DNA from: Syncephalis plumigaleata
Lineage: Eukaryota; Zoopagomycota; Zoopagomycetes; Zoopagales; Piptocephalidaceae
Direction: 5' to 3'
Assembly (NCBI GenBank): GCA_025201365.1
Contig: JAIXMF010000014.1
Location: forward strand, 663,379-727,378
Length of the DNA stretch: 64,000 bases
The number at the start of each line of letters is the position of its first letter. Position 1 is the first letter of the stretch. The position numbers and the translations under genes are program-made. Below, in pieces: positions 15,774-55,330 of this stretch. The notes under the pieces were generated by a model, which did no database searches, was not told the origin of the DNA, and was given only the letters and a program-made list of their open reading frames with translations.

Positions 15774-17314
15774 ATGATTGGCAAGCATAAGATCCTGGCT
15801 ACGGCCTTGCTCATTGCTGCAACCAGTAATGCTTTGTCGGTCGCGGCAATACCATCACAAAGAGACGACGAGTCAACGGACCAACCTGTTAATATCGATA
15901 TTCCCTTCCTCGGATGGCGGTTTAGGGCGAGTACCGCTGCCGCTAACCAAGAAGGAGCCACAGCTGGAGCCGTCACATCATGGTGTATTGAAGACCCATT
16001 TGGCGGTATAATCAATGGGAAGCTCAACGCTAATGCTCGCTCAGATGATGGCTCGACACATTGGAGCACGGGTTTGCACATACAAACACCGGAAGGAAAG
16101 GCATGGAATAAGGAATTCAATGCAAATGATGCTACAGGTAAATAGCCATAGTTTGTAAGCAGTAACACGATAACTTACTAGGATATAGCTACACAAGAAC
16201 AGAGCAATGTTAGCATGAAGCGTGACGTAGAAAGCGCCACCGAGAGTCAAGCGTCCTTCCATACTGTAAATCAAGCGATGCACAGTGAAGCTCATGAAAG
16301 CAGCGAAACAAGGCATTTCTCTGCACAAACCATTAATGAAACTCATGAAACTCAAAACAACGAAGCTAACTTTGTCAGTTTCACAAGTCATGGTCGACAC
16401 TCTGGTCGTGGCCGACATCCAGTTCCGTCGCATCCAAGACCGCGCACTCATCATCGAAATCATCCACCGCCGTCAAGACCCGGTCCGCCACCACGTCACC
16501 CACCCTCTCCACCACGTCACTCACCGCCACCAACTCCTAAACCACCAGCTCCACTGTACCACGACCTGCTCCGCCAGCACCGAAGCCACCACAACCTGCT
16601 CCGCCAGCACCAAAGCCTCCAGCACCTGTCCCTAAACCGCCAGCACCACGACCAGCTCCACCAGCACCACGACCAGCTCCACCAGCACCACGACCAGCAC
16701 CGCCAGCACCAAAGCCACCAGCACCTGTCCCTAAACCGCCAGCACCACGACCAGCTCCACCAGCGCCAAAGCCTCCAGCACCTGTCCCTAAACCACCAGC
16801 ACCACAACCTGCACCGCCAGCACCAAAGCCTCCAGCACCTGTCCCTAAACCGCCAGCACCACGACCAGCTCCACCAGCGCCAAAGCCTCCAGCTCCTGTC
16901 CCTAAACCGCCAGCACCAAAGCCACCAGCACCTGTTCCTAAACCGCCAGCACCACGACCAGCACCGCCAGCACCAAAGCCGCCAGCACCTGTTCCTAAAC
17001 CGCCAGCACCACAACCTGCACCACCAGCACCAAAGCCGCCAGCACCAAAGCCGCCTACACCTGTTCCTAAACCGCCAGCACCACAACCAGCACAACCAGC
17101 ACCAAAGCCTCCAGCACCTGTTCCTAAACCGCCAGCACCTGTTCCTAAACCACCAGCACCACAACCAGCACCACCAGCACCAAAGCCACCTACACCGGAG
17201 CCATATACACCCAGCTACCCATCTCTTCCTCAAAATCCATATCCCCAATATCCTCAACCACAGCAACCTTCATACGTATCCAGCAATCCTGGTAATGCTT
17301 ATTCTTACTATTAA
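15774..17314 (+). CDS. Secreted Pro-rich repeat protein, one frameshift
   Basis: Unrecognised secreted protein, about 496 aa if the frame is continuous. The start MIGKHKILATALLIAATSNA is a signal peptide. A Ser/Asn/Thr/Glu/His-rich region follows, then a long Pro repeat region and a Pro/Gln/Tyr tail (PEPYTPSYPSLP... SNPGNAYSYY). Exon 1 is 15774-16137 and exon 2 starts at 16199-10 = 16189. The intron of 51 nt (GTAAAT...GATATAG) joins in phase 1. The Pro-coding frame switches by one base at about 16552-16558: before it the frame reads TPKPPAPL, after it the repeat PAPKPPAPVPKPPAP runs in another frame to a TAA at 17312. The switch fits one lost C in a CC pair. Cell-wall or extracellular-matrix function is a guess from composition. 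Confidence 0.65.
16556..17190 (+). repeat. Pro-rich coding minisatellite (PAPKPPAPVPKPPAP type)
   Basis: Imperfect tandem copies of CCAGCACC-, AAGCCTCC- and CCTAAACCG-type blocks that encode alternating PAPRPAPP, PAPKPPAP and VPKPPAP motifs. Such arrays vary in length between strains and are prone to slippage and assembly errors, which matters for the frameshift at its left end. Confidence 0.85.
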
Positions 17315-18565
17315 TGATAATGAGATGATCACTACTGCTACAGGGTTTTCTAACCGATTAACGCAGTTATCTTTAACTTTGGCTGTTTATTAATAAATAA
17401 ATTTGCACAATTGTTAACACCATTATCATCATAGAAATCCAATTGATATAGCCGATAATAATAACAATTCAGTTTCAGTAATGGATCATTTATTGATAGC
17501 GATAACTATCATCATCAATTATATAAGGTATACGATACAAGTGTACTAATATAGTTTGATATTGCCATGTCATGTACTAACAAGTATTAATAACTAGGAT
17601 GGTAGATAAGTTATGATAATAATGCTTACGGTTAATTGCGTAGAGTAGCAACAAGTAAACAAAGTGAATACACGATAACAATGTAATAAACAAGCAGTAG
17701 TAGTAGAATGACTGACTTGTCACGAACGAGCAAGGAATGAGCAAAGAAGGGTGCATGAACACGTATGTCAGTTTATTTGAAGAAGCAGTATATGCTTGTA
17801 TGTGGTAAATAGAGTATGTATATGGCAGTAAACAAATGAGAATACAGATAAAAGCATGACGTAATAGTGGCATACAAACAGATGACGGAAAAGAGTGGTA
17901 AAAGTGAAAGGTACATATTACAACGAGAGCAGTAAACGCTTAAACATTGATAAATAAGCAGGACAGTGATAGAAAACAAAGGACTAGAACAAACAATAAA
18001 CAATGCTTATTGGTGTAGTAATAATAACGACAAGTGAGCATGTAGATAGTTTAGAGCAAGAGGAAGAGAACAAAGAGATAAATAAAAGTCATAGAGATAG
18101 TATGGCAGAGTAGCTGCTATTGGGAATGTGTATGCTAAAGTGAAAGGGGAAGTAAGTGGAATGTGAATGACACGAAGAAGACGCGTATTACTGAGAAAAT
18201 AAAAGAAATAACTAGCATATAGTTAAGAGGAAGTGGACGCGTATTGTTTACTGACAAGTGGAATGTAGCTGACACAAAGAAGACAGCATTGGTAAAGAAG
18301 TAAGGGAAATAACAATGATATGGATACTTAGAAGTGGATTAGTAAACCATTAATGACAATTAATAAGTATTGGCACTTGCTTGTTCTTATTGATTGTTGT
18401 GTTCTAAGCGGCATTGTACCATTGTAACTTCGCTACAATGACATCGGATGACACGAATCTTACTGTATTATCATAACTACTATTTATTAGTAAAACAAAA
18501 TGCTAACTGCGTTAATCAGAAGGAGAAATCCTGTATTAAGCAGCAACATACTCCGCGTGCCAACT
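17315..18565. other. Intergenic, purine-biased stretch, no gene
   Basis: About 1.25 kb. From roughly 17630 to 18340 the plus strand is rich in AAC, AGT and GAAGA words and poor in C, so the complementary strand gives spurious Leu/Tyr/Ser-rich ORFs (for example 17577-17873). The same texture returns in the right part of the window. Confidence 0.55.
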
Positions 18566-20468: not shown

Positions 20469-23400
20469 ATGAGCGCCGACAGTCATCGTCGGCGTCGACA
20501 GAGTGCCGGCATACGCGGCGCAGTGCCAATGTCGACTAGTAATGGCGCTCGCAGTGACGGCGAATACTCGTCCATGTCGAACAGACGTACTCGTTCGCGA
20601 GAGTCGGCAGCCCACCTATCCTCGTCTTGGTTGGGCAGGACTAGTCAGCGAACGGTGTCCATTCTCGTTAACAATCGACATCCTGAAGTTGAATTACGCA
20701 CTTTACATCCCTGCATTCTTTCGGGATTTATTACCAGTGGACGTTTGCCGTCAAGTTCCTTAGGAAGTGGCGATAGACGCGAAGTCATCTATGCAACGGA
20801 ACCCGTACACCACGAAGGACCATCGGGTGAGATACGAGAGGAGACGCGTGGCGGGTTTGTTTACCAGCTACGCGGTAGACGTGGTATGCCTTTATCGCGT
20901 CGATTATTTCTATTTATCGCCTGGTCAGTGCCGGGAAGCGGTACATGCCAATGTATGGCACAGGTAGTGGAGGCCGATCATTGTACGTTTCCCGATGAAC
21001 CAGCCGAGACTCGTGGACAATTCCGTCGTCTTACGAAGCAGCGCATGGGTAGTACGGGCGGTGTACGCCTCGATAGACGACGCAATGAATCGATGGGATA
21101 TGTATCGGAGTCGGCGCAATCTTACAGACATGCAACGAGCCGTTCCATCGACAATGGTGCCTATAGCGATGGCGAGTCCATGATATCAATGAATAGCAAC
21201 GGCAACAATGGTAATAGTAATAGTGGCTCGTCGAAGCGTCAACCGCCGCGTCATCGAGAGCGATATCGCTATGTACTTGATGAGGATCGAGTGGCGTTCA
21301 CCATCATATCATCGATGGAGTACACGCAGGAACGAGCTGAATTGCGAGTTGACATTATCGATGAAGCGTTTGACGGCTATGCCGATAGTAAAGCTATGGC
21401 TAAGCGTACATCTCCTATATGGCTTGAAGCATTAGGCGACGATGGTGACCAAGAAGAAAGTGGAGACGAATCAACGATGAACGATCTATACACGAGTCAT
21501 GGAGATCGCACACCAGATACGACAGATGTTTATAATTATAATAGCAATAGTAGTACGAGTAATATTGCTAATCATGGATTTGATGAATCATCGTAAGTAT
21601 AAAATGGATACTAGTGCAATCGAGATATGTATATAAATATGAATGTATAGACTAATGAATTCTATTTTATTAGATTTGATTCAAATATTAATCGAGATGT
21701 ATCAGGTTAGTGGATTGAATAAAGAAATAGATAGATAGATAAATAGATGGATAGATAGATTGACACAACTCATTTGTTGTTAGATTCGCGTACAAGCAGT
21801 ATCGCTAGTCGAATGTTTCGACATGTTACCGTTACCATACGTAATCGTCATTACGGTCTTGTCTTAGCGGGACCACATATGGATATGCGACGGGGTAGGA
21901 ATCAAAGCACGCCAGACAGCTCTATTATGGCGGGAAACAAGGATATGACGTGTGTATTTCGCTCGGGTGTCCTAGGGGCAAGCGGCATCAAGGGGTGTCT
22001 CATCTACCAGATTATACCACGAGCAGCCACCGAGTCAATGTCTATCGTGCAACGGCAATTTCTTGCTATTGTATGGGATGTACATTCATCATTGAGTACC
22101 GATAGCAAATCACGTAAAGATACTGGTCGTGCGACAGGAAGACGTTTACGCGCCTTCGTCTTTACTATTGATCGACCACGCTTCCCGCATGATAGGATGG
22201 AACGTGAACGATTCTTTCGAGTCGTATACGAGGAGTTGGCTAAAGCAACCGATGGTTATCGCGGTGCACGCTGGTGCGGCCGTGTCGGTGAGGAAAGCTA
22301 CACCTGTCGTGTGAAGCCTCTACTGAGCGAAGGCAATGACGGACGACTAATGGCCACCGGTATTGTGGCAGAGTTTCGCCCTATACGATCAAATAGATTA
22401 CCAGGACGTTGGCCGATATTCGTACCACCTGAACTATTTGTGTAAGTAATAGACGGTAACCATGTAATATGAATATTTACAAATTTATGTATATGTATGT
22501 ACAATATGATAGATTTCAATCGTCAACAGCGGCGTTAAAAGTACGCGAAGTGATTGGCCAGCATAATGCCACTGTTGAAAATGAGAAACGAGCACCGAAT
22601 TCAATGGTAGTCGTACTATTAGAGAATCGTCACTCCTTAATTGGGTTAAGCTTACGCTCTCATGATCCTGGTATTTATATCGGTGAACGAATGCAAGGAC
22701 TGGCTAAACAATTGCTACGCGACGAGTATGAAGTGGCCACACTACTATTAGATCGTGTTTATTTACGACAGAAGAATGCGCTACTCGGTAAACAACGTAC
22801 CGTATTTGGTTATACCGTGTATGAATTGGTGGATTCCTCTCGTATAGCCGCCAACTTTCACGCAAACACCCATCAGAATCGACATCATTCATTGGCGGTT
22901 ACATCGCAAAGCGTAGATCGCTCCTTAGTCTACAATAGTAATCATCAGCATCATCATTCCATGATCGCTAAAGAATCTCGTTATCTTCTAGTGGGTTGGG
23001 TTAAACTATCCGGTCGTAATATACGATTTGCCGTTCTAGTATTTCGATCAGTGTGTAATCCTGATCAGATACCGAATGGTTTGCCAGAGTCACCGCATCT
23101 ACGTCAATACATTTATCGCACATTGATCTCGTATACGCATTGTAGCACGGGTATATGGGAGCAAGACACGGATTCCGGCCGACCTTATCATAATCCGAGT
23201 GCTTCGTCATCCGCTGCATCGGTGCAAATGAATCAGAGAGATGGCTGGCTACAAGGTTTATCGTATTCCAGCTATTTGGGAATAGGACAGATACCAGTGC
23301 TATCTGTTCAGCTGTATGAAGTGAGTAGTTTATTGATTCAGTATAGTTATAATTGAATATTGATGATGTTTTCCTTTTACTTTCTCTCCTCTTTAGATGG

Positions 23401-26400
23401 ACGGTATTCCCAAGAGTCCTGCCCTAGCAACTTATCCTAAATGCGGTAAGTGTGCATTCACAATCATCAATTAGTATTGTAATCAATAATTAATCATGTA
23501 TGTTTATATATTATTTAGATCAAGCATCTGTGGCATGGCCACCATCCGAACTACAAGTGCAGGTGGATAACTCGCATGGTGCACTTCGTCTACTTAATGG
23601 TAGATTCTTCTCGGCGGGAAGTCGATGTGTCACCGAGGTGAGTCGACACTTGCATCCCAATGAAAGATCGTTGGGCGTCTACGTGCCAGATTCATCGAGT
23701 CAACGATCGATAGGCATCCTATGCTTCCAAGTGGTTGATATAGGCAGTAATCTACTGCAACATTCACCACATGTCGTTATCTCCTGGTGTATCTCGGGAG
23801 AGGCAGGACAGGAATCGCTTAAATTTCACGCTGACATACTGCAAGATAAAGATATGGGATATGATGGCAATCTTGGCGCTTTACACGCACCCAACATTTA
23901 CACACAGGTCATGGCATCCTATCTGAAATCCAACAACCCAGATGATGCGTCCATTACGAGTAATACCGATATCACTGGTGAATGGGTTATGGAGTGTACG
24001 GCACTCCTGGATATACGTATCCCGTATCGTATGACAACACGAGCATGGATGAGTGAGACGGGTCAGCTATGCTATAATGTTACATTATCGGGTAAAGGCA
24101 GTGTAAGTCATTATTACTATTATTAGTAGTAGTAGTAGTCATTGGATAGATGGATGGCCTAATGTATATGATGTCACTATTAGCGATCAGCACGTAGGTC
24201 AAGTGCCAACAGTAATAATTCCATTTACATGTCAAATACACGTAGTAAGTTTGTTATGATCATATATATTATGCAATGTATTTATTATTATTATTGTTGT
24301 AATAGCGCGCAAAGGATCCATGCCATCTCTCTCTCAGTCGCAAGTAGCCACGGCACAATGGCGTAACTCAACCATGAGCACTTCCACCGCTGTAACAACA
24401 ATGACGATGAACACTGATGTATCACATAGTACTATGCCCGTCAATCGTGCACCATTCGATCGTGCTAGTATGAGCCAACATTCTATTTATACATTGCGTG
24501 GTGCATCATCTACCGATCCATCTCTCGTTATGCCTAAAATGCCGGTGATGTCACAGTTGTCTATTCATCATTTGCCACCACCACCACCACCACCGCCTTT
24601 ACCGCCACCGCCGCCATCTATCCCTACTAATTTATTAATCAAATTACGTATACAAAATCAATTGGAATTGATTCAATTATGTACACCACGCACCTTTCTA
24701 ATGGATTCAAATATAACACCTACCACTTTGGATACATTCCCTATAGAAGCAATCCTACCTAAACAGTCGACCGAGTTTGTACTTGACCTACCATTGACAC
24801 CGGATACTTGTACTACTAGTACAATTATTAAGGGATGTACAATGTATGAAGTAAGAGGAGCTACAAACACCGCCGAGGAGGGTGGCGCGATTAGTAATAG
24901 CAATATTCCGGATGGCACTTTCTTCGCCATTGGCTGGTCGATCTCGATGAATCCCGCCGAGGGACAACGGCAATTCTTTGCCTCTATCGCGCATATCCCC
25001 GGTGTTATGGCTACTGTGAATATGCGATCACAGAAATCGTCACCGCAAGTACGTCGTATTATCGATTTACTTATTGCAGATAGTAAGGGACAGAGTCAGC
25101 TATTTACGCAACTGGCGAATACACGATTTAAATCGGCCGGTGAATCAATGCGACAAGCGTATATGTTGCCATCAGGTACCTCGGTAGGTGTTGCAGCGAG
25201 TATGCCGGTGGATGGACCTATTGTCATGGATGTCGTACTATGGTCAGCTGCAGAGAATACGAGCACACCATTGAAATCGTCTAAATCATCTCCACCATTA
25301 GTATCACCGCCACCCAGGTAAGTGTTTATTAATTTACATACATATACATATATAACTAATTGATTGATAATGGTAGTAATACGACAAAAGAACAATCAGT
25401 AATACCATTGAAATCCTCGCCATCTTCATCGTCTTCACCCACTTCCCCTCCTCCTCCTGCACTGCCCGTACGACGACGACCACCTCTTTCCTCGCCACCG
25501 CCCTTACCCGACTTGGCCACTGATTTAGACGATAAACCTATTTATAGCATGGGTAGTCTATTAACAGGTAGGCTAATTTGATCAATGACTGCCCAACTCT
25601 ATAGTATACTTATAATATTACTTATAATGATAATAGCGGAAACATCGAAAATGATTGCAGCTCGATCGCGTGCCATCTCTGATGTCTCTGACACGAGTCT
25701 ACCATCAGAATTGCCACCGGCTGTCCCACGTCCTACACTGCCGCCACCACCATTACCGGAGGAGGAATCAGTGCCAGCGCCAGCTCCAATGGCTAGTTTT
25801 AAGATGCTATTATGTATCGAGCAACGTCATCGTCAAGTGAATCTATGTCGTCTATACGAACAAGTGCTACATGGCATTTGCGAGAAGAACTCGCTGGCTA
25901 CGATTGCCGTGGGACACGATAGTCTGTCCACCTATTGTGCCCTACCCAGTCAAACAAGTAATGGCAATAATAGTGCGGATACCTTGATTGAGGGTTCATT
26001 AGTGTACGGATTTACATCGGCTGCCTCCACCTTTAGTATCGGTGGCTATTGTCTATCGATTAGATGGCGTGCTGACCTCGATAGAAAGGCGTGCTTCTAC
26101 TCGGCCATCCTATTCCGTATGGACATTGAAATGATGCCCGAGGATGATATGGACTGGAGTTATCTATTAGATACGATGCACGAGCAGGATCATTGGCAGG
26201 AAACGGGCACAGGCGTCATACGCTACTACACGTTCACCGATGATAGTCGTCAACTAGCACTACACGCCAATATGTTTATTGAACCCATGATAGTGACACG
26301 AATTGAACTCACCGAGTGGACTGATTATGACATTAAGGTAAGACGAAATTGTAGTAATGTAACTATTTTATACTAATTGCTATGATAGATGATCGATTCA

Positions 26401-27336
26401 GGTAAACATCAAGCCATTTATCCATTATCTGCTCGTGAATTCTTGATCAACTCTCGTAAGTAGTTGTACACTCATATTGTTAATACTATTTCTAATCATT
26501 TCTTATTGTAATTATTAGAAGCAGCAGCTCAAGAAGGTGATGATACACTAGCAGGTCTAATACCTGCAAGTGTTAATATGACGGTGCAGTTGACATTGGA
26601 GAATCTTCATCCTACATTCTCATTACAAAATGGACAACTGCTTGTGGTGGATGGTCAGCAAGTACAACGACCACCCACGGTAGTGCCGAGTGGACAGAGT
26701 ATCAATGGGCGTTTCTCCATCTCATGGGCTATGCCAGAATACATTGGTGCCTCGATTGCACCATTAGCTTGTCTACTTGTGTATGAAATCTCACAGCCTG
26801 ATGGTAAAGAATTAGCAGATCGACCTCATTTAATAGTAGGTTGGCGAGTGAATGGTAACAGTCTAAATCGTCAAGAGAACAAAGCAGCAGAAGAAGGAGA
26901 AGCAACAGTAGAAGGAGAAGATAGTGAGAAGCAACAGCAGCAGGATACATCACGTCAATTCTTTGCACGTATCATTGGCGATGCACTCACTCAGGATATA
27001 CTAGAATTATGGACGATGAAACAAGCGATACCTAGTGATCCTCTGGTAGTGGCACAGAAGGATCAATCATTTATTGAACTGGCCGGTAATGGATTGATGC
27101 CAGCCAATGCACAATCCAAGGAACGGCGTCTATTAGCAGATGGCCGTATTCTATTAACACATGCTAGTTTAACCAGTGTAGAGGTGGCATCATCGAATGA
27201 TCCATCATCAGCAACCTCACCCACCACATCAGTGAATAAGATGCCTTCTAGTGTTCATTTAGCACTTAAAGTGCAACTATCTCGTGAACCATCACGAGCA
27301 TCTATTATAGGTGAATGGTCACTCAATTCCACCTAG
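20469..27336 (+). CDS. Giant seven-repeat protein (about 2,034 aa), repeats possibly of cytolysin/lectin (actinoporin-like) fold
   Basis: Twelve exons: 20469-21592, 21674-21705, 21784-22441, 22513-23320, 23397-23445, 23519-24102, 24184-24244, 24306-25317, 25377-25567, 25637-26337, 26389-26455 and 26519-27336. All have GT/AG ends and the total, 6,105 nt, is divisible by three. No signal peptide or membrane segment is seen. Seven diverged repeats start near residues 61, 398, 635, 901, 1213, 1559 and 1783. Each has three aligned blocks: a first strand (VTVTIRNRHYGL, MVVVLLENRHSL, LQVQVDNSHGAL, MTVQLTLENLHP), a central strand (KGCLIYQII, FGYTVYELVD, KGCTMYEVRG, ACLLVYEISQ) and a third (FLAIVWDVHS, YLLVGWVKLSG, FFAIGWSISMN, HLIVGWRVNG). 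A poly-Pro stretch precedes repeat 5 and another lies in exons 9-10. The block order resembles the actinoporin-like cytolysin/lectin fold, but no catalytic or pore-forming claim is made. Confidence 0.85.
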
Positions 27337-27814
27337 AAGATGGAAATGTTTATTATTATTATAACTCTATATACTATTATTTATATGTATTATTATTATT
27401 ACAATTATTCAATCTACCTTGACACAAATATTAATAAAAAGAAGTAATAGGTCTTTGTAATCATATATTACTGTTATATAGTAGTTGAGCATTGACTTGT
27501 TTCGTTAAAATGAACGCGTATTCTTGCCTATCACAATACATTCATCATTTAAATGGAACTCGCTCTTTTTGGTTATTATTTCTTAACTGCTAGTTAAACG
27601 CTTACACACTCCTTCACCCCTTTTCCTAATTGTTTCCCGTTCAAGTATCTACCTTGTTACTTACATATACACGTAGTCTATTAGAAGCAGTGTATATACG
27701 CGTCTATCTGTCTGTGTGCGTGCGTGTCTGTGCGTCTGTACGTGTATATGAAGTATTTGTGATTATTTGCTACTACTACTACAACAGCAACAGCAACAGC
27801 AATTTGTTACTCCT
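27337..27814. other. Intergenic / 5' UTR of the citrate carrier
   Basis: Opens with TTATTATT-rich 3' sequence and an AATAAAAAG-type polyadenylation signal near 27430. It then becomes T/C-rich and ends in a GTGTCTGTGCGTCTG run and CAACAG repeats just before the ATG. No gene seen. Confidence 0.55.
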
Positions 27815-29087
27815 ATGGCTGCTTCTAGTGATAAAAGTCAAGTAAGTAAAGCTATCTTTATATCTATTCTATTATACTAATCCAAGTCTGACTAGCTGCC
27901 TAAGCGTCGTTGGTTTAGTTTAGCCGCGGGTGGGGTTGCAGGTGCGGTAGAAGCAACGGTCACTTATCCCACCGAGTATATTAAGACGCAATTACAACTA
28001 CAAGATGGTGGTCGAGTTAAGGTAGCTCAATTGATACTTGAGTCATTCTATCTACTAATAGCTAGTATTGTGTCTAGTTTCGTGGCCTATTCATTGTTTA
28101 ACGACAACAGTGCGTGAACATGGCATATTCTCCGTGTATCGTGGATTATCGGCGATGATTATCGGTACTGCATCCAAGGCGGCCATTCGTTTTGTATCAT
28201 TTGAACGATTTAAAGCGTTCCTAGTCGATGAACAAGGTCGATTATCGGGACCACGAGCCATGCTAGGTGAGTACTAGTAATGACGATATTCATCTGTGAT
28301 TACTGCTTTGATCTAATAACGTTTATCAAATACAGCTGGTATGGGAGCCGGTGTATGTGAGGCAGTACTTGTGGTTACTCCCACTGAAACGATCAAGTAA
28401 GGGGACGACATCTACAAGTAAATAATAGCATTGTTAATGATAATAATAATGTAACTGTCTATTAGGACAAAGCTTATTCATGACCAGAACCAGTTACAAC
28501 CCAAATATCGTGGTCTTATTCATGGTATTTATTTAGTTATTTACGTATTCATATTCATATTCATATTCATATAATTGAATGCTAGGTGTCACTACCATTG
28601 TTCGTACAGAAGGACCCATGGGTATCTATCGTGGCCTATTCCCTGTGGTGGCACGACAAGGTGCTAATCAAGCTGTACGATTCAGCGTTTACTCCTCGAT
28701 GAAGCAATGGATCCAGACGAGACAACCCGCTAACCAGCCTATTCATTGGGCTACTACGTTTGGTATTGGCATGGTGGCAGGCACCATTACAGTGTACGCT
28801 ACAATGCCATTAGATGTGATTAAAACGAAGATGCAAGGCATTGGAGCCAAAGAACGTTATGGCAATAGTGTGCGTTGTGCACTACAAGTACTTAAAGAGG
28901 AAGGCCTATTAGCATTTTGGAAAGGCGCAACACCACGTCTTTCCCGACTTATTGTAAGTGCATACTGTATATTATAAGTGTTTGCGTGTACTAATGAATA
29001 CGCCTGTATTGATAGTTCTCTGGTGGTATTGTATTTACGGTATACGAACAAGTATTACATTTATTGAATGCATCAGTAAAAGATTAA
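27815..29087 (+). CDS. Mitochondrial citrate/tricarboxylate carrier (SLC25A1/Ctp1 type), one missing base
   Basis: Inner-membrane exchanger of the mitochondrial carrier family, 300 aa if the frame is continuous. Seven exons: 27815-27841, 27896-28021, 28078-28266, 28336-28396, 28466-28524, 28586-28953 and 29016-29087. The three carrier signatures are TYPTEYIKTQLQLQ, TPTETIKTKLIHDQ and MPLDVIKTKMQGIG. The first and third match citrate carriers closely, as does the ending LSRLIFSGGIVFTVYEQVLHLL. The exon sum is 902 nt, one short of 301 codons. At the start of exon 3 (about 28085-28090) the frame needs one more base in a CC run to read FRGPIHC as in the family; as written it meets a TAA. Single-base assembly error or a recent inactivating deletion. 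Confidence 0.88.
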
Positions 29088-30472
29088 TAAGAAAGAAAAG
29101 ACATATTACTACTGCTGCTGCTATTATGCTGATTACTATTATTGTTATTTGATTGATAATCGATAGATTGGCAACATTCTTGCAAATATGCTGCCTATGT
29201 TCTACCTTATCATTCAAATGTTGAAACATCTAAATAAAGAGCAGTCAGAATGGAAACGTGTCCTATGTTCAATTGCTTGCTTTGTTTTGGTTACTGGCGC
29301 TGCTGTTTCACATATTCATTGACAGCAAACGCACACTGTCATTTTTGCACGTTGTTCAAACAACGCATCATGCTAAAAGCAACCAAATTCAGCGTCGGTT
29401 ATTAAAGATGAGTTGCTAATTACACCTACTTTCCTTTATCGTATATATGACGGAGATGACATGTAAAGTGTCTCGACAATGCAAACACATACACACACAT
29501 ACACATACTTGATCAAGGAGAAGCAACGGGATAGAATGAGCGAGTTTATTGTTTGTATCATTGACACACGTTCATCTCACTAATACGGTGTTAACAATGT
29601 GATGACAGCATACAAATTGGGTCGAGTTCCCATCCATCCATTACCGAATAAAGCAATGTTTAAATTTATCTGAGCTGTTCAAACACTATGCATAGGAAAA
29701 GTCCGAAGCCGAGAATAAATAGATTCGTACACAGAAATATATGAGCACTTGGCCTTATCATGTCAATACTTGGATGCTTGGCCTTTAAAAGTCGAGCACG
29801 TTCTACAGAAAATATCGAATGCTGTCACGACAATCCTTCTCTGCTTTTTTCGATTAACAAACTCTTTGCTTGTGACCAAGTGCGTGTACTACCACTAATC
29901 TCCCCGTCTTTTAGTATTTAAGTCGTGCCATTCGTTGCTACACCACTATCTCCGTAGTGTAGTGTTTCTTCTTTCTTTACGCTTCAACCTTCTTATTTGT
30001 CTTGCAGATAATTAAGAAAGACGTCTATTCATCTCATATCATTCTTACTATCTTACGTTACCGGTGTCTCGGCTAGTCTATCCTTACATCGTTCATTTGC
30101 GACAACATTCCCGTTGGCACAAGTACACAAATACAGACGTATCAAGTTCTAGTCGTATTCATCTCCTAAACGCACACACACACACACACACACACGTACA
30201 CACAAACGTACCAAGTAGATCTCCTGTTTCAACACGGTCTACTTTTGTCTTTTTCTTTCTTGATATAACTGTCCTGGCGACAAGGTGTCCTCTGCTCTTC
30301 TTCATCTTAACGTCTTAACGTCTTATTAACTTTTCTTCCTTTCTTTTTATCCTTTTTATTTCAATCAAAAAAGGTTTCTTTTTTATCACCGTTCGTTCAC
30401 GTATTTTACCGAACAATTCTTACGTAAATCTTATCTTAATAGGAATACATCAGTAGCACTATTATCGTCATT
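29088..30472. other. Intergenic, 1.4 kb, with (CA)n
   Basis: AT-rich, no ORF with protein-like pattern. Contains a CACATACACACACATACAC run near 29484-29505, a (CA)n microsatellite at about 30172-30196 and a strongly T/C-rich stretch (30235-30420) that is probably the promoter and 5' UTR of the LPMO gene. Confidence 0.55.
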
Positions 30473-43109: not shown

Positions 43110-46100
43110 ACATATCCACCTCCTACGAGTGTCACGGTGATAGATACGCGGTTGACGAGTGAACTAGTCAGTTAGTCAGCTAATAAATAAACAAGTAGTT
43201 AGCGCGCGTGTGTGTGTGCATATCCACCTCCAACGAGTGTCGCGGTGATAACTACGCGGTTAACAAGTGAACGAATGAGCAATAAACGAGTAACGAGTAA
43301 CGCGTAAGCAATAAACAAGTGTGCTGACAAGAGTGTTAGTGTGCATACAGCCAGTTAAGAGTGTTACGGTGATAGATACGGGAATAACGAGTGAACAAGT
43401 GAACGAATGAGCAATAAACGAGTAAACGAGTAACGCGTAAGCAATAAACAAGTGTGTTTATGAGTGTGTTAGTGTGCATACAGTCAGTTAAGAGTGTTAC
43501 GGTGATAGATATGCGAATAACGAGTGAACAAGTGAACGAATGAGCAATAAACGAGTAAGCGAGTAACGCGTAAGCAATAAACAAGAGTGTTGACGAGTGT
43601 GTTAGTGTGCATACAGCCAGTTAAGAGTGTTACGGTGATAGATATGCGAATAACGAGTGAACAAGTGAACGAATGAGCAATAAACGAGTAAACGAGTAAC
43701 GCGTAAGCAGTAAACAAGAGTGTTGACGAGTGTGTTAGTGTGCATACAGCCAGTTAAGAGTGTTACGGTGATAGATATGCGAATAACGAGTGAACAAGTG
43801 AACGAATGAGCAATAAACGAGTAACGAGTAACGCGTAAGCAGTAAACAAGAGTGTTGACGAGTGTGTTAGTGTGCATACAGCCAGTTAAGAGTGTTACGG
43901 TGATAGATACACGAATAACGAGTGAACAAGTGAACGAATGAGCAATAAACGAGTAACGAGTAACGCGTAAGCAATAAACAAGTGTGTTGACAAGTGTGTT
44001 AGTGTGCATACAGCCAGTTAAGAGTGTTACGGTGATAGATATGCGAATAACGAGTGAACAAGTGAACGAATGAGCAATAAACGAGTAAGCGAGTAACGCG
44101 TAAGCAATAAACAAGAGTGTTGACGAGTGTGTTAGTGTGCATACAGCCAGTTAAGAGTGTTACGGTGATAGATATGCGAATAACGAGTGAACAAGTGAAC
44201 GAATGAGCAATAAACGAGTAAACGAGTAACGCGTAAGCAGTAAACAAGAGTGTTGACGAGTGTGTTAGTGTGCATACAGCAGCCAGTTAAGAGTGTTACG
44301 GTGATAGATATGCGAATAACGAGTGAACAAGTGAACGAATGAGCAATAAACGAGTAACGAGTAACGCGTAAGCAATAAACAAGTGTGTTGACGAGTGTGT
44401 GAGTGTGCATACAGCAGCCAGTTAAGAGTGTTACGGTGATAGATACGGGAATAACGAGTGAACAAGTGAACGAATGAGCAATAAACGAGTAGACGAGTAA
44501 CGCGTAAGCAAAAGCAAGTGTGTTGACGAGTGTGTGAGTGTGCATACAGTCAGTTAAGAGTGTTACGGTGATAGATATGCGAATAACGAGTGAACAAGTG
44601 AACGAATGAGCAATAAACGAGTAAACGAGTAACGCGTAAGCAATAAACAAGTGTGTTGACGAGTGTGTGAGTGTGCATACAGCAGCCAGTTAAGAGTGTT
44701 ACGGTGATAGATACGGAATAACGAGTGAACAAGTGAACGAATGAGCAATAAACGAGTAGACGAGTAACGCGTAAGCAACAAGCAAGTGTGTTGACGAGTG
44801 TGTGAGTGTGCATACAGTCAGTTAAGAGTGTTACGGTGATAGATATGCGAATAACGAGTGAACAAGTGAACGAATGAGCAATAAACGAGTAAACGAGTAA
44901 CGCGTAAGCAGTAAACAAGAGTGTTGACGAGTGTGTTAGTGTGCATACAGCAGCCAGTTAAGAGTGTTACGGTGATAGATATGCGAATAACGAGTGAACA
45001 AGTGAACGAATGAGCAATAAACGAGTAAACGAGTAACGCGTAAGCAGTAAACAAGAGTGTTGACGAGTGTGTTAGTGTGCATACAGCCAGTTAAGAGTGT
45101 TACGGTGATAGATATGCGAATAACGAGTGAACAAGTGAACGAATGAGCAATAAACGAGTAACGAGTAACGCGTAAGCAGTAAACAAGAGTGTTGACGAGT
45201 GTGTTAGTGTGCATACAGCCAGTTAAGAGTGTTACGGTGATAGATACACGAATAACGAGTGAACAAGTGAACGAATGAGCAATAAACGAGTAACGAGTAA
45301 CGCGTAAGCAATAAACAAGTGTGTTGACAAGTGTGTTAGTGTGCATACAGCCAGTTAAGAGTGTTACGGTGATAGATATGCGAATAACGAGTGAACAAGT
45401 GAACGAATGAGCAATAAACGAGTAAGCGAGTAACGCGTAAGCAATAAACAAGAGTGTTGACGAGTGTGTTAGTGTGCATACAGCCAGTTAAGAGTGTTAC
45501 GGTGATAGATATGCGAATAACGAGTGAACAAGTGAACGAATGAGCAATAAACGAGTAACGAGTAACGCGTAAGCAGTAAACAAGAGTGTTGACGAGTGTG
45601 TTAGTGTGCATACAGCAGCCAGTTAAGAGTGTTACGGTGATAGATATGCGAATAACGAGTGAACAAGTGAACGAATGAGCAATAAACGAGTAAACGAGTA
45701 ACGCGTAAGCAATAAACAAGTGTGTTGACGAGTGTGTGAGTGTGCATACAGCAGCCAGTTAAGAGTGTTACGGTGATAGATACGGGAATAACGAGTGAAC
45801 AAGTGAACGAATGAGCAATAAACGAGTAGACGAGTAACGCGTAAGCAACAAGCAAGTGTGTTGACGAGTGTGTTAGTGTGCATACAGCCAGTTAAGAGTG
45901 TTACGGTGATAGATATGCGAATAACGAGTGAACAAGTGAACGAATGAGCAATAAACGAGTAAACGAGTAACGCGTAAGCAATAAACAAGTGTGTTGACGA
46001 GTGTGTGAGTGTGCATACAGCAGCCAGTTAAGAGTGTTACGGTGATAGATACGGAATAACGAGTGAACAAGTGAACGAATGAGCAATAAACGAGTAAACG

Positions 46101-49100
46101 AGTAACGCGTAAGCAACAAGCAAGTGTGTTGACGAGTGTGTGAGTGTGCATACAGTCAGTTAAGAGTGTTACGGTGATAGATATGCGAATAACGAGTGAA
46201 CGAGTGAACGAATGAGCAATAAACGAGTAACGAGTAACGCGTAAGCAGTAAACAAGAGTGTTGACGAGTGTGTGAGTGTGCATATATCAGCCAGTTAAGA
46301 GTGTTACGGTGATAGATATGCGAATAACGAGTGAACAAGTGAGTGAATGAGCAATAAACGAGTAACGAGTAACGCGTAAGCAGTAAACAAGTGTGTTGAC
46401 GAGTGTGTGAGTGTGCATACAGTCAGTTAAGAGTGTTACGGTGATAGATACGTGAATAACGAGTGAACAAGTGAACGAATGAGCAATAAACGAGTAGACG
46501 AGTAACGCGTAAGCAACAAGCAAGTGTGTTGACAGTGTGTGAGTGTGCATACAGCCAGTTAAGAGTGTTACGGTGATAGATACGGGAATAACGAGTGAAC
46601 AAGTGAACGAATGAGCAATAAACGAGTAGACGAGTAACGCGTAAGCAACAAGCAAGTGTGTTGACGAGTGTGTTAGTGTGCATACAGCCAGTTAAGAGTG
46701 TTACGGTGATAGATATGCGAATAACGAGTGAACAAGTGAACGAATGAGCAATAAACGAGTAACGAGTAACGCGTAAGCATAAACAAGTGTGTTGACGAGT
46801 GTGTGAGTGTGCATACAGCCAGTTAAGAGTGTTACGGTGATAGATACGGAATAACGAGTGAACAAGTGAACGAATGAGCAATAAACGAGTAACGAGTAAC
46901 GCGTAAGCAATAAACAAGTGTGTTGACGAGTGTGTGAGTGTGCATATATCAGCCAGTTAAGAGTGTTACGGTGATAGATATGCGAATAACGAGTGAACAA
47001 GTGAACGAATGAGCAATAAACGAGTAACGAGTAACGCGTAAGCATAAACAAGTGTGTTGACGAGTGTGTTAGTGTGCATACAGCCAGTTAAGAGTGTTAC
47101 GGTGATAGATACGGAATAACGAGTGAACAAGTGAACGAATGAGCAATAAACGAGTAACGAGTAACGCGTAAGCAAAACAAGTGTGTTGACGAGTGTGTGA
47201 GTGTGCATATATCAGCCAGTTAAGAGTGTTACGGTGATAGATATGCGAATAACGAGTGAACAAGTGAACGAATGAGCAATAAACGAGTAACGAGTAACGC
47301 GTAAGCAACAAGCAAGTGTGTTGACGAGTGTGTGAGTGTGCATACAGTCAGTTAAGAGTGTTACGGTGATAGATATGCGAATAACGAGTGAACAAGTGAA
47401 CGAATGAGCAATAAACGAGTAACGAGTAACGCGTAAGCATAAACAAGTGTGTTGACGAGTGTGTGAGTGTGCATATATCAGCCAGTTAAGAGTGTTACGG
47501 TGATAGATATGCGAATAACGAGTGAACAAGTGAGTGAATGAGCAATAAACGAGTAACGAGTAACGCGTAAGCATAAACAAGTGTGTTGACGAGTGTGTGA
47601 GTGTGCATACAGTCAGTTAAGAGTGTTACGGTGATAGATATGCGAATAACGAGTGAACAAGTGAACGAATGAGCAATAAACGAGTAACGAGTAACGCGTA
47701 AGCAAAACAAGTGTGTTGACGAGTGTGTGAGTGTGCATACAGTCAGTTAAGAGTGTTACGGTGATAGATATGCGAATAACGAGTGAACAAGTGAACGAAT
47801 GAGCAATAAACGAGTAACGAGTAACGCGTAAGCAATAAACAAGTGTGTTGACGAGTGTGTTAGTGTGCATACAGCCAGTTAAGAGTGTTACGGTGATAGA
47901 TATGCGAATAACGAGTGAACAAGTGAACGAATGAGCAATAAACGAGTAACGAGTAACGCGTAAGCATAAACAAGTGTGTTGACGAGTGTGTAGTGTGCAT
48001 AACAGCCAGTTAAGAGTGTTACGGTGATAGATATGCGAATAACGAGTGAACAAGTGAACGAATGAGCAATAAACGAGTAACGAGTAACGCGTAAGCAATA
48101 AACAAGTGTGTTGACGAGTGTGTGAGTGTGCATAACAGCCAGTTAAGAGTGTTACGGTGATAGATACGGAATAACGAGTGAACAAGTGAACGAATGAGCA
48201 ATAAACGAGTAGACGAGTAACGCGTAAGCAACAAGCAAGTGTGTTGACGAGTGTGTGAGTGTGCATATATCAGCCAGTTAAGAGTGTTACGGTGATAGAT
48301 ATGCGAATAACGAGTGAACAAGTGAGTGAATGAGCAATAAACGAGTAACGAGTAACGCGTAAGCAATAAACAAGTGTGTTGACGAGTGTGTAGTGTGCAT
48401 ACAGCCAGTTAAGAGTGTTACGGTGATAGATATGCGAATAACGAGTGAACAAGTGAACGAATGAGCAATAAACGAGTAACGAGTAACGCGTAAGCAATAA
48501 ACAAGTGTGTTGACGAGTGTGTGAGTGTGCATATATCAGCCAGTTAAGAGTGTTACGGTGATAGATATGCGAATAACGAGTGAACAAGTGAGTGAATGAG
48601 CAATAAACGAGTAACGAGTAACGCGTAAGCAATAAACAAGTGTGTTGACGAGTGTGTGAGTGTGCATACAGCCAGTTAAGAGTGTTACGGTGATAGATAT
48701 GCGAATAACGAGTGAACAAGTGAACGAATGAGCAATAAACGAGTAACGAGTAACGCGTAAGCAATAAACAAGTGTGTTGACGAGTGTGTTAGTGTGCATA
48801 ATCAGCCAGTTAAGAGTGTTACGGTGATAGATATGCGAATAACGAGTGAACAAGTGAACGAATGAGCAATAAACGAGTAACGAGTAACGCGTAAGCAATA
48901 AACAAGTGTGTTGACGAGTGTGTGAGTGTGCATACAGCCAGTTAAGAGTGTTACGGTGATAGATACGAATAACGAGTGAACAAGTGAACGAATGAGCAAT
49001 AAACGAGTAACGAGTAACGCGTAAGCAATAAACAAGTGTGTTGACGAGTGTGTTAGTGTGCATATCAGCCAGTTAAGAGTGTTACGGTGATAGATATGCG

Positions 49101-52100
49101 AATAACGAGTGAACAAGTGAGTGAATGAGCAATAAACGAGTAACGAGTAACGCGTAAGCAACAAGCAAGTGTGTTGACGAGTGTGTAGTGTGCATACAGC
49201 CAGTTAAGAGTGTTACGGTGATAGATACGGAATAACGAGTGAACAAGTGAACGAATGAGCAATAAACGAGTAACGAGTAACGCGTAAGCAATAAACAAGT
49301 GTGTTGACGAGTGTGTTAGTGTGCATACAGCCAGTTAAGAGTGTTACGGTGATAGATACGGAATAACGAGTGAACAAGTGAACGAATGAGCAATAAACGA
49401 GTAACGAGTAACGCGTAAGCAATAAACAAGTGTGTTGACGAGTGTGTAGTGTGCATAATCAGCCAGTTAAGAGTGTTACGGTGATAGATATGCGAATAAC
49501 GAGTGAACAAGTGAGTGAATGAGCAATAAACGAGTAACGAGTAACGCGTAAGCAATAAACAAGTGTGTTGACGAGTGTGTAGTGTGCATATATCAGCCAG
49601 TTAAGAGTGTTACGGTGATAGATATGCGAGTAACGAGTGAACAAGTGAACGAATGAGCAATAAACGAGTAACGAGTAACGCGTAAGCATAAACAAGTGTG
49701 TTGACGAGTGTGTTAGTGTGCATAACAGCCAGTTAAGAGTGTTACGGTGATAGATATGCGAATAACGAGTGAACAAGTGATGAATGAGCAATAAACGAGT
49801 AACGAGTAACGCGTAAGCAATAAACAAGTGTGTTGACGAGTGTGTAGTGTGCATACAGCCAGTTAAGAGTGTTACGGTGATAGATATGCGAATAACGAGT
49901 GAACAAGTGAACGAATGAGCAATAAACGAGTAACGAGTAACGCGTAAGCAATAAACAAGTGTGTTGACGAGTGTGTAGTGTGCATAATCAGCCAGTTAAG
50001 AGTGTTACGGTGATAGATATGCGAATAACGAGTGAACAAGTGAACGAATGAGCAATAAACGAGTAACGAGTAACGCGTAAGCAATAAACAAGTGTGTTGA
50101 CGAGTGTGTGAGTGTGCATAACAGCCAGTTAAGAGTGTTACGGTGATAGATATGCGAATAACGAGTGAACAAGTGAACGAATGAGCAATAAACGAGTAAC
50201 GAGTAACGCGTAAGCAATAAACAAGTGTGTTGACGAGTGTGTTAGTGTGCATATATCAGCCAGTTAAGAGTGTTACGGTGATAGATATGCGAATAACGAG
50301 TGAACAAGTGAACGAATGAGCAATAAACGAGTAACGAGTAACGCGTAAGCAATAAACAAGTGTGTTGACGAGTGTGTTAGTGTGCATACAGCCAGTTAAG
50401 AGTGTTACGGTGATAGATATGCGAATAACGAGTGAACAAGTGAACGAATGAGCAATAAACGAGTAACGAGTAACGCGTAAGCAATAAACAAGTGTGTTGA
50501 CGAGTGTGTTAGTGTGCATATATCAGCCAGTTAAGAGTGTTACGGTGATAGATATGCGAATAACGAGTGAACAAGTGACGAATGAGCAATAAACGAGTAA
50601 CGAGTAACGCGTAAGCAAAAACAAGTGTGTTGACGAGTGTGTTAGTGTGCATATATCAGCCAGTTAAGAGTGTTACGGTGATAGATATGCGAATAACGAG
50701 TGAACAAGTGAACGAATGAGCAATAAACGAGTAACGAGTAACGCGTAAGCAATAAACAAGTGTGTTGACGAGTGTGTAGTGTGCATATATCAGTCAGTTA
50801 AGAGTGTTACGGTGATAGATATGCGAATAACGAGTGAACAAGTGAACGAATGAGCAATAAACGAGTAACGAGTAACGCGTAAGCATAAACAAGTGTGTTG
50901 ACGAGTGTGTGAGTGTGCATATATCAGCCAGTTAAGAGTGTTACGGTGATAGATATGCGAATAACGAGTGAACAAGTGAACGAATGAGCAATAAACGAGT
51001 AACGAGTAACGCGTAAGCATAAACAAGTGTGTTGACGAGTGTGTTAGTGTGCATACAGCCAGTTAAGAGTGTTACGGTGATAGATATGCGAATAACGAGT
51101 GAACAAGTGACGAATGAGCAATAAACGAGTAACGAGTAACGCGTAAGCATAAACAAGTGTGTTGACGAGTGTGTTAGTGTGCATACAGCCAGTTAAGAGT
51201 GTTACGGTGATAGATATGCGAATAACGAGTGAACAAGTGAGTGAATGAGCAATAAACGAGTAACGAGTAACGCGTAAGCAATAAACAAGTGTGTTGACGA
51301 GTGTGTGAGTGTGCATACAGCCAGTTAAGAGTGTTACGGTGATAGATATGCGAATAACGAGTGAACAAGTGATGAATGAGCAATAAACGAGTAACGAGTA
51401 ACGCGTAAGCAATAAACAAGTGTGTTGACGAGTGTGTTAGTGTGCATACAGCCAGTTAAGAGTGTTACGGTGATAGATATGCGAATAACGAGTGAACAAG
51501 TGAACGAATGAGCAATAAACGAGTAACGAGTAACGCGTAAGCAATAAACAAGTGTGTTGACGAGTGTGTTAGTGTGCATACAGCCAGTTAAGAGTGTTAC
51601 GGTGATAGATACGAATAACGAGTGAACAAGTGAGTGAATGAGCAATAAACGAGTAACGAGTAACGCGTAAGCAATAAACAAGTGTGTTGACGAGTGTGTG
51701 AGTGTGCATACAGCCAGTTAAGAGTGTTACGGTGATAGATACGGAATAACGAGTGAACAAGTGAGTGAATGAGCAATAAACGAGTAACGAGTAACGCGTA
51801 AGCAATAAGCAAGTGTGTTGACGAGTGTGTTAGTGTGCATACAGCCAGTTAAGAGTGTTACGGTGATAGATACGAATAACGAGTGAACAAGTGAGGAATG
51901 AGCAATAAACGAGTAACGAGTAACGCGTAAGCAATAAACAAGTGTGTTGACGAGTGTGTGAGTGTGCATACAGCCAGTTAAGAGTGTTACGGTGATAGAT
52001 ATGCGAATAACGAGTGAACAAGTGAACGAATGAGCAATAAACGAGTAACGAGTAACGCGTAAGCAATAAACAAGTGTGTTGACGAGTGTGTTAGTGTGCA

Positions 52101-53480
52101 TACAGCCAGTTAAGAGTGTTACGGTGATAGATATGCGAATAACGAGTGAACAAGTGAGGAATGAGCAATAAACGAGTAACGAGTAACGCGTAAGCAGTAA
52201 ACAAGTGTGTTGACGAGTGTGTGAGTGTGCATACAGCCAGTTAAGAGTGTTACGGTGATAGATATGCGAATAACGAGTGAACAAGTGAGGAATGAGCAAT
52301 AAACGAGTAACGAGTAACGCGTAAGCAATAAACAAGTGTGTTGACGAGTGTGTTAGTGTGCATATACAGTCAGTTAAGAGTGTTACGGTGATAGATATGC
52401 GAGTAACGAGTGAACAAGTGAACGAATGAGCAATAAACGAGTAACGAGTAACGCGTAAGCAATAAACAAGTGTGTTGACGAGTGTGTAGTGTGCATATCA
52501 GTCAGTTAAGAGTGTTACGGTGATAGATACGGAATAACGAGTGAACAAGTGAACGAATGAGCAATAAACGAGTAACGAGTAACGCGTAAGCAATAAACAA
52601 GTGTGTTGACGAGTGTGTTAGTGTGCATACAGCCAGTTAAGAGTGTTACGGTGATAGATATGCGAGTAACGAGTGAACAAGTGAACGAATGAGCAATAAA
52701 CGAGTAACGAGTAACGCGTAAGCAATAAACAAGTGTGTTGACGAGTGTGTTAGTGCATATATCAGTCAGTTAAGAGTGTTACGGTGATAGATATGATAAC
52801 GAGTGAACAGGAGAATGAGCAATAAACGAGTAACGAGTAACGCGTAACAGTAAACAAGTGTGTTGACGAGTGTGTTAGTGTGCATATATCAGCCAGTTAA
52901 GAGTGTTACGGTGATAGATACCGATAACGAGTGAACAAGTGAACGAATGAGCAATAAACGAGTAAACGAGTAACGCGTAAGCAATAAACAAGTGTGTTAC
53001 GAGTGTGTAGTGTGCATATATCAGTCAGTTAAGAGTGTTACGGCAATAGATATGCGAATAACGAGTGAACAAGTGAACGAATGAGCAATAAACGAGTAAC
53101 GAGTAACGCGTAAGCAATAAACAAGTGTGTTGACGAGTGTGTTAGTGTGCATATATCAGTCAGTTAAGAGTGTTACGGTGATAGATACACGAATAACGAG
53201 TGAACAAGTGAACGAATGAGCAATAAACGAGTAACGAGTAACGCGTAAGCAATAAACAAGTGTGTTGACGAGTGTGTGAGTGCATATATCAGTCAGTTAA
53301 GAGTGTTACGGTGATAGATACCGAATAACGAGTGAACAAGTGAACGAATGAGCAATAAACGAGTAACGAGTAACGCGTAAGCAGTAAACAAGTGTGTTGA
53401 CGAGTGTGTGAGTGTGCATACAGTCAGCCAGTTAAGAGTGTTACGGCGATAGATATGCGAATAACGAGTGAACAAGTGAA
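43110..53480. repeat. 132-bp satellite array, about 77 tandem copies
   Basis: The unit contains, in order, CAGCCAGTTAAGAGTG, TTACGGTGATAGATATGCG, AATAACGAGTGAACAAGTG, AACGAATGAGCAATAAACG, AGTAACGAGTAACGCG, TAAGCAATAAACAAGTG and TGTTGACGAGTGTGTTAGTG. Consensus length is 132 bp, with 129-137-bp variants. AACGAGT is repeated inside the unit, so it probably grew from a shorter repeat. The two left-edge units (about 43118 and 43238) are strongly diverged, as are several at the right edge (52730-53480). Because 132 is a multiple of three and the complement has few stops, long ORFs appear on the minus strand; they change frame with every indel and are not genes. Confidence 0.97.
43602..45451. repeat. 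Higher-order repeat of about 1,337 bp inside the satellite
   Basis: A run of units with the same variant order recurs: the rare GATAGATACACGAAT variant lies at about 43903 and again at 45240, 1,337 bp apart (about ten units), and the neighbouring variant units match on both sides. This shows that blocks of units were duplicated together. Confidence 0.75.
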
Positions 53481-55330
53481 CAATGAGCAGATGAGCGAGT
53501 GTAGTGAATAAGAGGAATGAGTAAAGCGCGCAACAAACGAGATCGAGCGGAAGGAGTGAGTGTAGTGAGTAGAAGGTGCACGAGGAACGAGTAGAATGAC
53601 AAGAACACACGAGGAATAAGTATGATGAGTAAAACACGAGAAGAGCGAGTAGATCAAGAGAAAGGGTAAGCATAGCGAGTATAGCGCACGAAGAACGAGA
53701 TCGAGCGAGAGAAGTAAGTAAAACGCGAGAGAGTGAGTATATTGAGTAGATCGTACAAGAGGAGTGAGTAGAACACGCGAGAGGACCGAGATCGAGCGAG
53801 AGGAGCGAGTATTATGACAAGAACGCGCGAGTAATGAGTAGATCGAGTGCGAGAAGAATAGTTGAACGTATAGTAGTTTGGATAGTTGATAGTAACGAGA
53901 GCATACACGTATAATAAATAGTATATATTGAACGGTAATGTTTATTAGTTAGTATGCAGTAGCAAGCGTATTGAGTGTAAAGAGTAGAACGCGCGACGAA
54001 CGTAAGAGTAATCAGTAGAGCGTATGAGGAAGTGAGTGGAATGAGTAGCACGCGCGAGGAGTGAGTATAGTGACAAGATCGAGCGAGAAACAAGTAGAAT
54101 AAGCGAGGAGTGTAAGACGAATGCGTGAGCGTAATGAGTATAGTGAGTAGATCCGAGCGAGAGGAGTGAGAGTAGTGAGTAGAACACACGAATAACGAGT
54201 AGATCGTGCAAGAGGAACGAATATAAACAGTAGAACAAGCGAGGCAAGTAAGAAGAAAGAGTAGAACGCGCGATGAAGTAAGAAGAAAGAGCAGATGAAG
54301 CGAGGAAGTAAGAGGAAGGAGTAGAACGAACGAGAGGAACAAGTAGAATGAGTAGGACACGCGAGGAACAAGTATAGTGAATAAAGCGTATGAACAACGA
54401 GTAGATCGAGCAAGAGGAGTAAATAGACACGCGAGAGAAAGCATAGAACGCGTGAGAGGAGCGAGTAGAACGAGCAAGAGGAAGGAGTATAGAGAGTAAG
54501 AGGAACGAGCGTAATGAATAGAACGAGAAAGAAGAAAGAGTAAAGCACGCAAGAACGGGTAGATCGAGCGAGATGAGAAGTATAGTGACGAGATGGAGAG
54601 AGTAGAGAGAGTATAGTGAGTGTGAGGAACGAGATCGAGCGAGATGAGAGAGTAGAAGGTGCCCGAGAAGTGAGTATAGTGAGTAGATCGAGCGAGTAAT
54701 GAGTAGATCGAACAAGATGAGTGAGTATAGTAACAAGTCGAGCGAGAAGGAAACGAGAAAGTATAGTAAATAGAACGCACGAGTAATGAGTAGATCGAGC
54801 GCGAGGAGAGAGTATATGAGTGTAGCGCAAGAAAGAGAGTAGATCAAGCGAGAGGAACGAGTATAGTGAGTAGATTGAGCGCGAGAGTAGTGAGTAAAGC
54901 ACGCAACGAACGAGATCGGACGAGAGGAATGAGCAGATCGAAGGAAAGAGAGAGAGAGGAACGAGTTAATCGAGCAAGAGAAGTGAGTATAGAGAGTAGA
55001 TCGTACAAGACGAACGAGTAGAACGCACGAGTAATGAGTAGAACGAGCGAGAGAGGAGAGTATAGAGAGTAAAGCGCAAGAACAACGAGTAGATCGAGCG
55101 AGGAATGAGTAGATCGAGAGAGAGAGAGTAGCGGGAGGAATAAGTAGAATGTAAGCGCAATGAGTAGAATGAGTAGAATGAGTAGAGGGCGAGACGAATG
55201 TAAGAGGAAAGTGAGAGCGTAATGAGTAGAACACGCAAGGAATGAGTAGAATGAGCGAGTGAAAGAGAGTAATGAATATAACGTGCGAGGAATGAGCGGG
55301 ATTAGTGAAAAAAGAGTACAATAACAATGA
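53481..55330. repeat. Purine-biased irregular repeat block A
   Basis: Irregular succession of GATCGAGCGAGAGGA, GTGAGTATAGTGAGTAGA, AGAACGCGCGAG and GAATGAGTAGA words with no fixed period. The plus strand is strongly A/G-rich. Long Leu/Ser/Tyr-rich minus ORFs (up to 481 codons) result from the absence of stop words and are not accepted as genes. Large parts recur at 61620-64000. Confidence 0.85.
53880..53970. repeat. AT-rich core module, copy 1
   Basis: Contains GTAACGAGAGCATACACG, TATAATAAATAGTATATATT and TTTATTAGTTAGTATGCAGT. The same module, with small changes, is at 61738-61830 and 63578-63665, each time inside the purine-biased block. It is the only part of the block with a TATA-like, AT-rich composition. 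Confidence 0.8.

Follow-up and report, generated by a model that had tools for sequence, protein, structure and literature searches.

Syncephalis plumigaleata is a fungus parasitic on moulds. The 64,000-nucleotide stretch of its contig JAIXMF010000014.1 analysed here (the window) carries a gene encoding a protein of 2,034 amino acids (aa), built of seven diverged repeats (R1–R7) which very probably form an array of actinoporin-fold domains. Splicing at 20469–27336 (+) removes 11 GT-AG introns of 51–81 nt, leaving a frame of 2,034 codons whose only stop is at its end. In a full-length protein search the product is 100% identical across all 2,034 aa to BDF22DRAFT_745497 of Syncephalis plumigaleata (P0003). 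The coordinates and length given in an initial annotation of this DNA were exact, as judged from the splice model and this identity. A second copy of the gene lies with its flanks on contig C266 (14,994 bases; L005), 98.3% identical along 9.9 kb, with its reading frame and all splice sites intact. The two copies differ at 52 synonymous and 35 nonsynonymous sites (pN/pS 0.21). The C266 copy looks like a second allele, with purifying selection acting on the gene; some haplotypes have therefore been kept separate in the assembly. The layout of the gene is as follows, P0004 and P0005 being its orthologues in Syncephalis fuscata and Thamnocephalis sphaerospora.

20469–27336 (+): whole gene, 12 exons, 2,034 aa; gene model, identity to P0003 and intact second allele on C266
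20601–21371 (+): repeat 1, aa 45–301, exon 1; low-complexity insert ahead of its final two strands
21411–21434 (+): 'PIWLE' motif behind repeat 1, also present in P0004 and P0005
21789–22439 (+): repeat 2, aa 388–604, exon 3; highest conservation (62% to Thamnocephalis); actinoporin fold by prediction
22517–23320 (+): repeat 3, aa 607–874, exon 4 (last 1–2 residues in exon 5); conserved leading segment STAALKVREV
23542–24102 (+): repeat 4, aa 899–1085, exon 6
24184–24616 (+): Ser/Thr-rich and poly-Pro linker, aa 1086–1209; exon 7, an intron and the start of exon 8
24626–25255 (+): repeat 5, aa 1213–1422, exon 8
25444–25767 (+): Pro-rich linker between R5 and R6, with an intron (25568–25636) and a conserved motif (25663–25710)
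25786–26337 (+): repeat 6, aa 1557–1740, exon 10
26563–27333 (+): repeat 7, aa 1778–2034, exon 12; actinoporin fold by prediction, mean predicted local distance difference test score (pLDDT) 81

Every repeat is contained in one exon, with introns between repeats, except for the last residues of R3. There is thus one repeat per exon, yet the intron phases are mixed (in order 2, 1, 2, 0, 1, 0, 1, 2, 1, 0, 1), and symmetric exon shuffling is therefore not favoured. Two short segments stand out by their conservation in three species: STAALKVREV at the start of R3 is strictly conserved, and RxRxISDxSxTxLPSE (aa 1516–1531) is kept within the otherwise diverged linker between R5 and R6. The latter resembles a basophilic-kinase site. 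An SDGE motif occurs twice, in the N-terminal tail (20553–20573) and in the repeat 1 insert (21162–21182); P0004 has it in both places and P0005 in the insert only.

Homology of the seven repeats

For every repeat position a profile was made from 4–7 orthologous and paralogous sequences, 41 repeat sequences in total. When these seven profiles were compared by hhalign, 20 of the 21 pairs scored at least 20.3 across at least 159 columns, above every control (maximum 18.2 in 63 column-shuffled and 19.6 in 42 reversed comparisons); the seven diverged repeats initially proposed are thus real. The hhalign probability was at least 94% in 11 of the 21 pairs. Each position also matched the profile of the other six (7 of 7, probability 96–99% over 99–167 columns, R3 weakest), a comparison run without a separate control. 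Identity between repeats within the protein is 9–24%.

The initial annotation described three strand blocks in a constant order: Asn followed by His, Arg or Gln in the first, G-x-x-x-Y in the second, and Trp or another hydrophobic residue in the third. These were checked in an alignment of 23 of the 41 repeats (A4), which excludes the repeats of the C1 paralogues described below, the pieces from proteins P0001 and P0002, and four P0004/P0005 repeats. The blocks and their order are borne out, but the wording requires correction: block 1 is better written N-x-H (17 of the 23 have the N and 20 the H), with Q replacing N in R6 and L replacing H in R5, and the Trp of block 3 is invariant (23/23). 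The Gly of block 2 is present in 21 of the 23 and missing from R7; its Tyr, also found in 21, is F in R4. Leu27, Gly70 and Tyr74 (R2 numbering) are each found in 21 of 23.

Predicted fold and family tests

R2 and R7 were modelled separately with AlphaFold2, and the models were compared with 978 (R2) and 997 (R7) PDB chains preselected by Foldseek, of which the best 50 entries were considered. Both models are beta-sandwiches flanked by helices, with actinoporin topology, and their top PDB matches are actinoporins. This supports the cytolysin/lectin-type fold suspected at the outset, and neither model points to a different one. Where a helix or charged region and a terminal strand had been described after block 3, the models have an extra strand, then a helical part (a single helix in R2, three helices in R7) and finally three strands. 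Through their homology to the modelled repeats, R1 and R3–R6 would be expected to share the actinoporin-like fold. EqtII, FraC and bryoporin align to the models from their residue 20–30 onward, which we take to be mostly past the pore helix; the corresponding segment lies outside the R7 slice.

Searches against PDB sequences returned one chance match for R2 (phmmer, E 0.68), none for R7 (phmmer) and nothing at E ≤ 10 for a 23-row repeat profile (hmmsearch); the link to this fold is therefore apparent by structure alone. The actinoporin family profile, PF06369, likewise had no match in the seven repeat exons (E ≤ 1), 23 repeats (E ≤ 10) or four whole proteins (E ≤ 1). Instead of the small, single-domain, secreted form typical of that family there are 2,034 aa, seven domains and, by hydropathy, no hydrophobic N-terminal stretch.

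It is conceivable that the resemblance is due to chance, the protein being a beta-sandwich repeat protein of some other family drawn to this fold by AlphaFold2. The model alignments are shallow (23 and 16 rows) and confidence in the R2 model is only moderate, both of which would allow for this, but we regard it as highly improbable. No profile placed the repeats in another family. The sole recurring weak match, TRAPP14_C (PF23652), was rejected as a partial domain, below the curated 28-bit cut-off and absent from P0005: it reached 15.4 bits in the R5 exon, 15.5 in P0004 and 16.6 in the genome, with none in P0003 or P0005, and appeared in 2 of 23 repeats (best E 3.3e-4). The Pfam families NT5C, DUF1654 and RemA-like, each matching one of the 23 repeats at E 0.07–0.22, were put down to chance.

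A multivalent sugar binder of the fruit-body-lectin type, binding glycans at the lectin sites of this fold, is an unlikely identity for the protein. Actinoporins score clearly above the fungal fruit-body lectins (XCL, SRL, ABL and BEL; PF07367), at 14.1 against 9.8 for R7 and 12.9 against 7.1 for R2. PF07367 itself found no match in the repeat exons, the 23 repeats or the whole proteins, and none in the genome, in a search that recovered 1 of 14 controls, below cut-off.

Conservation, paralogues and surroundings

The search for orthologues in early-diverging fungi, with a count of their repeats, had been proposed at the start, and all seven repeats are kept. P0004 (1,958 aa, 62% identity) and P0005 (1,937 aa, 40%) cover 99–100% of the query, their repeats aligning in the same order; the P0004 model is without two short stretches, at the R4 start and inside R7. 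P0001, from a 5.4 kb contig of Syncephalis pseudoplumigaleata, is a fragment that spans R6 and R7 for the most part. In all, the protein searches yielded seven proteins, six from Syncephalis and Thamnocephalis (including the window's own) and one JGI protein. These searches require shared 5-residue words, the full-length search scoring the 8,000 candidates richest in them, and a search of this kind failed to return paralogues from the window's own genome; absence from other lineages is therefore not inferred.

Those paralogues are two adjacent, divergently transcribed and divergent multi-repeat genes on contig C1 (~1114800–1125770; L006, L013). The plus-strand gene carries R1, R2, R3, R4, part of R5, R6 and R7, and the minus-strand gene R1–R5; as their repeats are included in their own position profiles, only the cross-position matches are independent there. 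In the plus-strand gene two frames join near repeat 5 with no clear intron, possibly through assembly error or decay. Further genes on contigs C112 (L015) and C318 (L016) are 96% identical to each other across 3.4 kb, their frames otherwise diverged. A single clear repeat is present in each (E 1.6e-10 in C112, 1.5e-8 in C318); the marginal match, also one per contig, does not surpass the best shuffled control (0.0088).

When the 41 repeats are placed on a tree, every one of the seven positions forms one side of a branch, with 6 changes, the minimum; for R2, R5, R6 and R7 the support is not starred, and the tree carries flags for long branches. Joins deeper in the tree (R1+R2, R3+R6, R4+R7) have weak support, 80/76 to 88/86, but would fit block duplication. 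Identity to the Thamnocephalis counterpart is 38–62% for the repeats, highest in R2, as against 19–38% for the linkers and N-terminal tail. Given this clustering by position and the higher conservation than in the linkers, the domains look specialised rather than interchangeable. Since a related genus shares their order, the protein seems to follow an inherited plan for use inside the cell and not to be a toxin.

Just downstream of the gene, at 27800–29090, is an intron-containing mitochondrial carrier gene of the SLC25 type (PF00153 on its last large exon). Upstream, a 392-aa open frame runs across Pro/Ala-coding short repeats (16215–17393). A satellite-like block at 43262–53489 is a tandem array of about 77 copies of a ~132 bp unit, with 95% matches and strong GC and AT skew; more short repeats follow, to 64000.

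Possible function and known relatives

Simple hydropathy, rather than a trained predictor, indicated neither a signal peptide nor a transmembrane segment, consistent with a location in the cytoplasm. A pore-forming role was considered and rated low. By hydrophobic moment no clear amphipathic helix precedes the repeats; the protein is probably not a pore-former. While the gene model, the seven homologous domains, their conserved order, the purifying selection and the two predicted folds are demonstrated, we infer the cytosolic location, non-lytic behaviour and a binding role. On this proposal seven actinoporin-like (AF) domains would follow one another in an intracellular chain, with Pro/Ser-rich linkers, short or flexible, between them. 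Lacking the N-terminal pore-forming helix, whether through loss or from the outset, the domains would serve as binding modules, each with a surface suited to its own partner, be it a membrane lipid head group, a glycan or a protein. With its seven specialised modules, and with Pro/Ser-rich linkers following R4 and R5, the whole chain may serve at membranes as a scaffold or platform for recognition, multivalent and non-lytic. We give this complete explanation about an even chance, and put the step to a membrane or partner scaffold a little below that.

Several points weigh against this proposal. Homology between R3 and R7, the sole failing pair of the 21, was not detected directly by hhalign (score 7.4, 58 columns). 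The last three strands of the R2 model have block means of only 55–71 pLDDT, and the alignments behind the R2 and R7 models have repeats in common, so that the models are not fully independent. The best helical hydrophobic moment ahead of any repeat, 0.38, is a bare value without an actinoporin yardstick, and the segment before R7 falls outside the model; the STAALKVREV segment that leads R3 could be a helix. Finally, the protein may be secreted unconventionally.

Another reading is a protein secreted or released by the mycoparasite to attack the membranes of its fungal host. The fold is shared with membrane-binding toxins, and Syncephalis pseudoplumigaleata and Thamnocephalis sphaerospora are termed obligate mycoparasites in one report (PMC6784888); however, with no signal peptide by hydropathy, a size of 2,034 aa and no clear amphipathic helix, such a role appears quite unlikely. 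An intracellular protein for non-self or stress recognition, whose divergent domains sense proteins or ligands rather than membranes, would have a fungal precedent in Podospora BH, a HET protein in which a lectin-fold domain is described, in PMC10890737, as an intracellular specificity determinant. The lack of a signal peptide by hydropathy fits this reading, but Pfam detected no HET, NACHT or other signalling domain in the repeat exons or the whole protein, and conservation over two genera together with the pN/pS between alleles is unlike balancing selection on a recognition surface; we consider this explanation unlikely.

Actinoporin protomers, as separate chains, form an octameric ring. Were seven actinoporin-fold domains to lie side by side on a membrane, the scaffold proposed here might be a hetero-typic, covalently linked ring or arc needing no self-assembly, a machine for organising membranes and not a toxin, but this is very unlikely.

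If the scaffold proposal is true, a seven-domain intracellular array of fixed order in two Zoopagales genera, its domains conserved one by one, would mean that an early lineage of fungi turned the fold into a scaffold of modules. The array would supply natural, diverged versions of one domain for dissecting lipid, sugar or protein binding. It also provides structural identification, for the first time, of a large conserved protein that is entered in databases without a Pfam domain.

The actinoporin fold is familiar from single-domain toxins, lectins and lipid sensors. No report of tandem actinoporin arrays, and no paper combining Zoopagales with actinoporins, was found among the titles and abstract openings of top-ranked literature matches, which covered few subscription papers. 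Actinoporin-like proteins are listed, in PMC9526159, from cnidarians, molluscs, bacteria, oomycetes, fungi, fish and plants. Aegerolysins and RahU have shorter chains and lower scores against the models, and Nakanori of Grifola frondosa, a single 23 kDa domain, shows 13–15% identity to them in structural alignments. The lectin-fold domain of Podospora BH, related to the fruit-body lectins and so to actinoporins according to PMC10890737, is like the window protein in that a related fold is used inside fungal cells, a likeness drawn from description rather than structure; there the domain is placed behind a HET domain, which the window protein is without. Closest are the actinoporins and actinoporin-like proteins FraC, EqtII, sticholysin, Fav, HALT-1 and bryoporin, which share fold and topology with the R2 and R7 models. 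Actinoporins of the FraC type are small, single-domain and pore-forming, with an N-terminal amphipathic helix, whereas the window protein has seven diverged domains in one chain, no signal peptide by hydropathy and no clear pore helix: a known fold in a new architecture, probably put to a new use.
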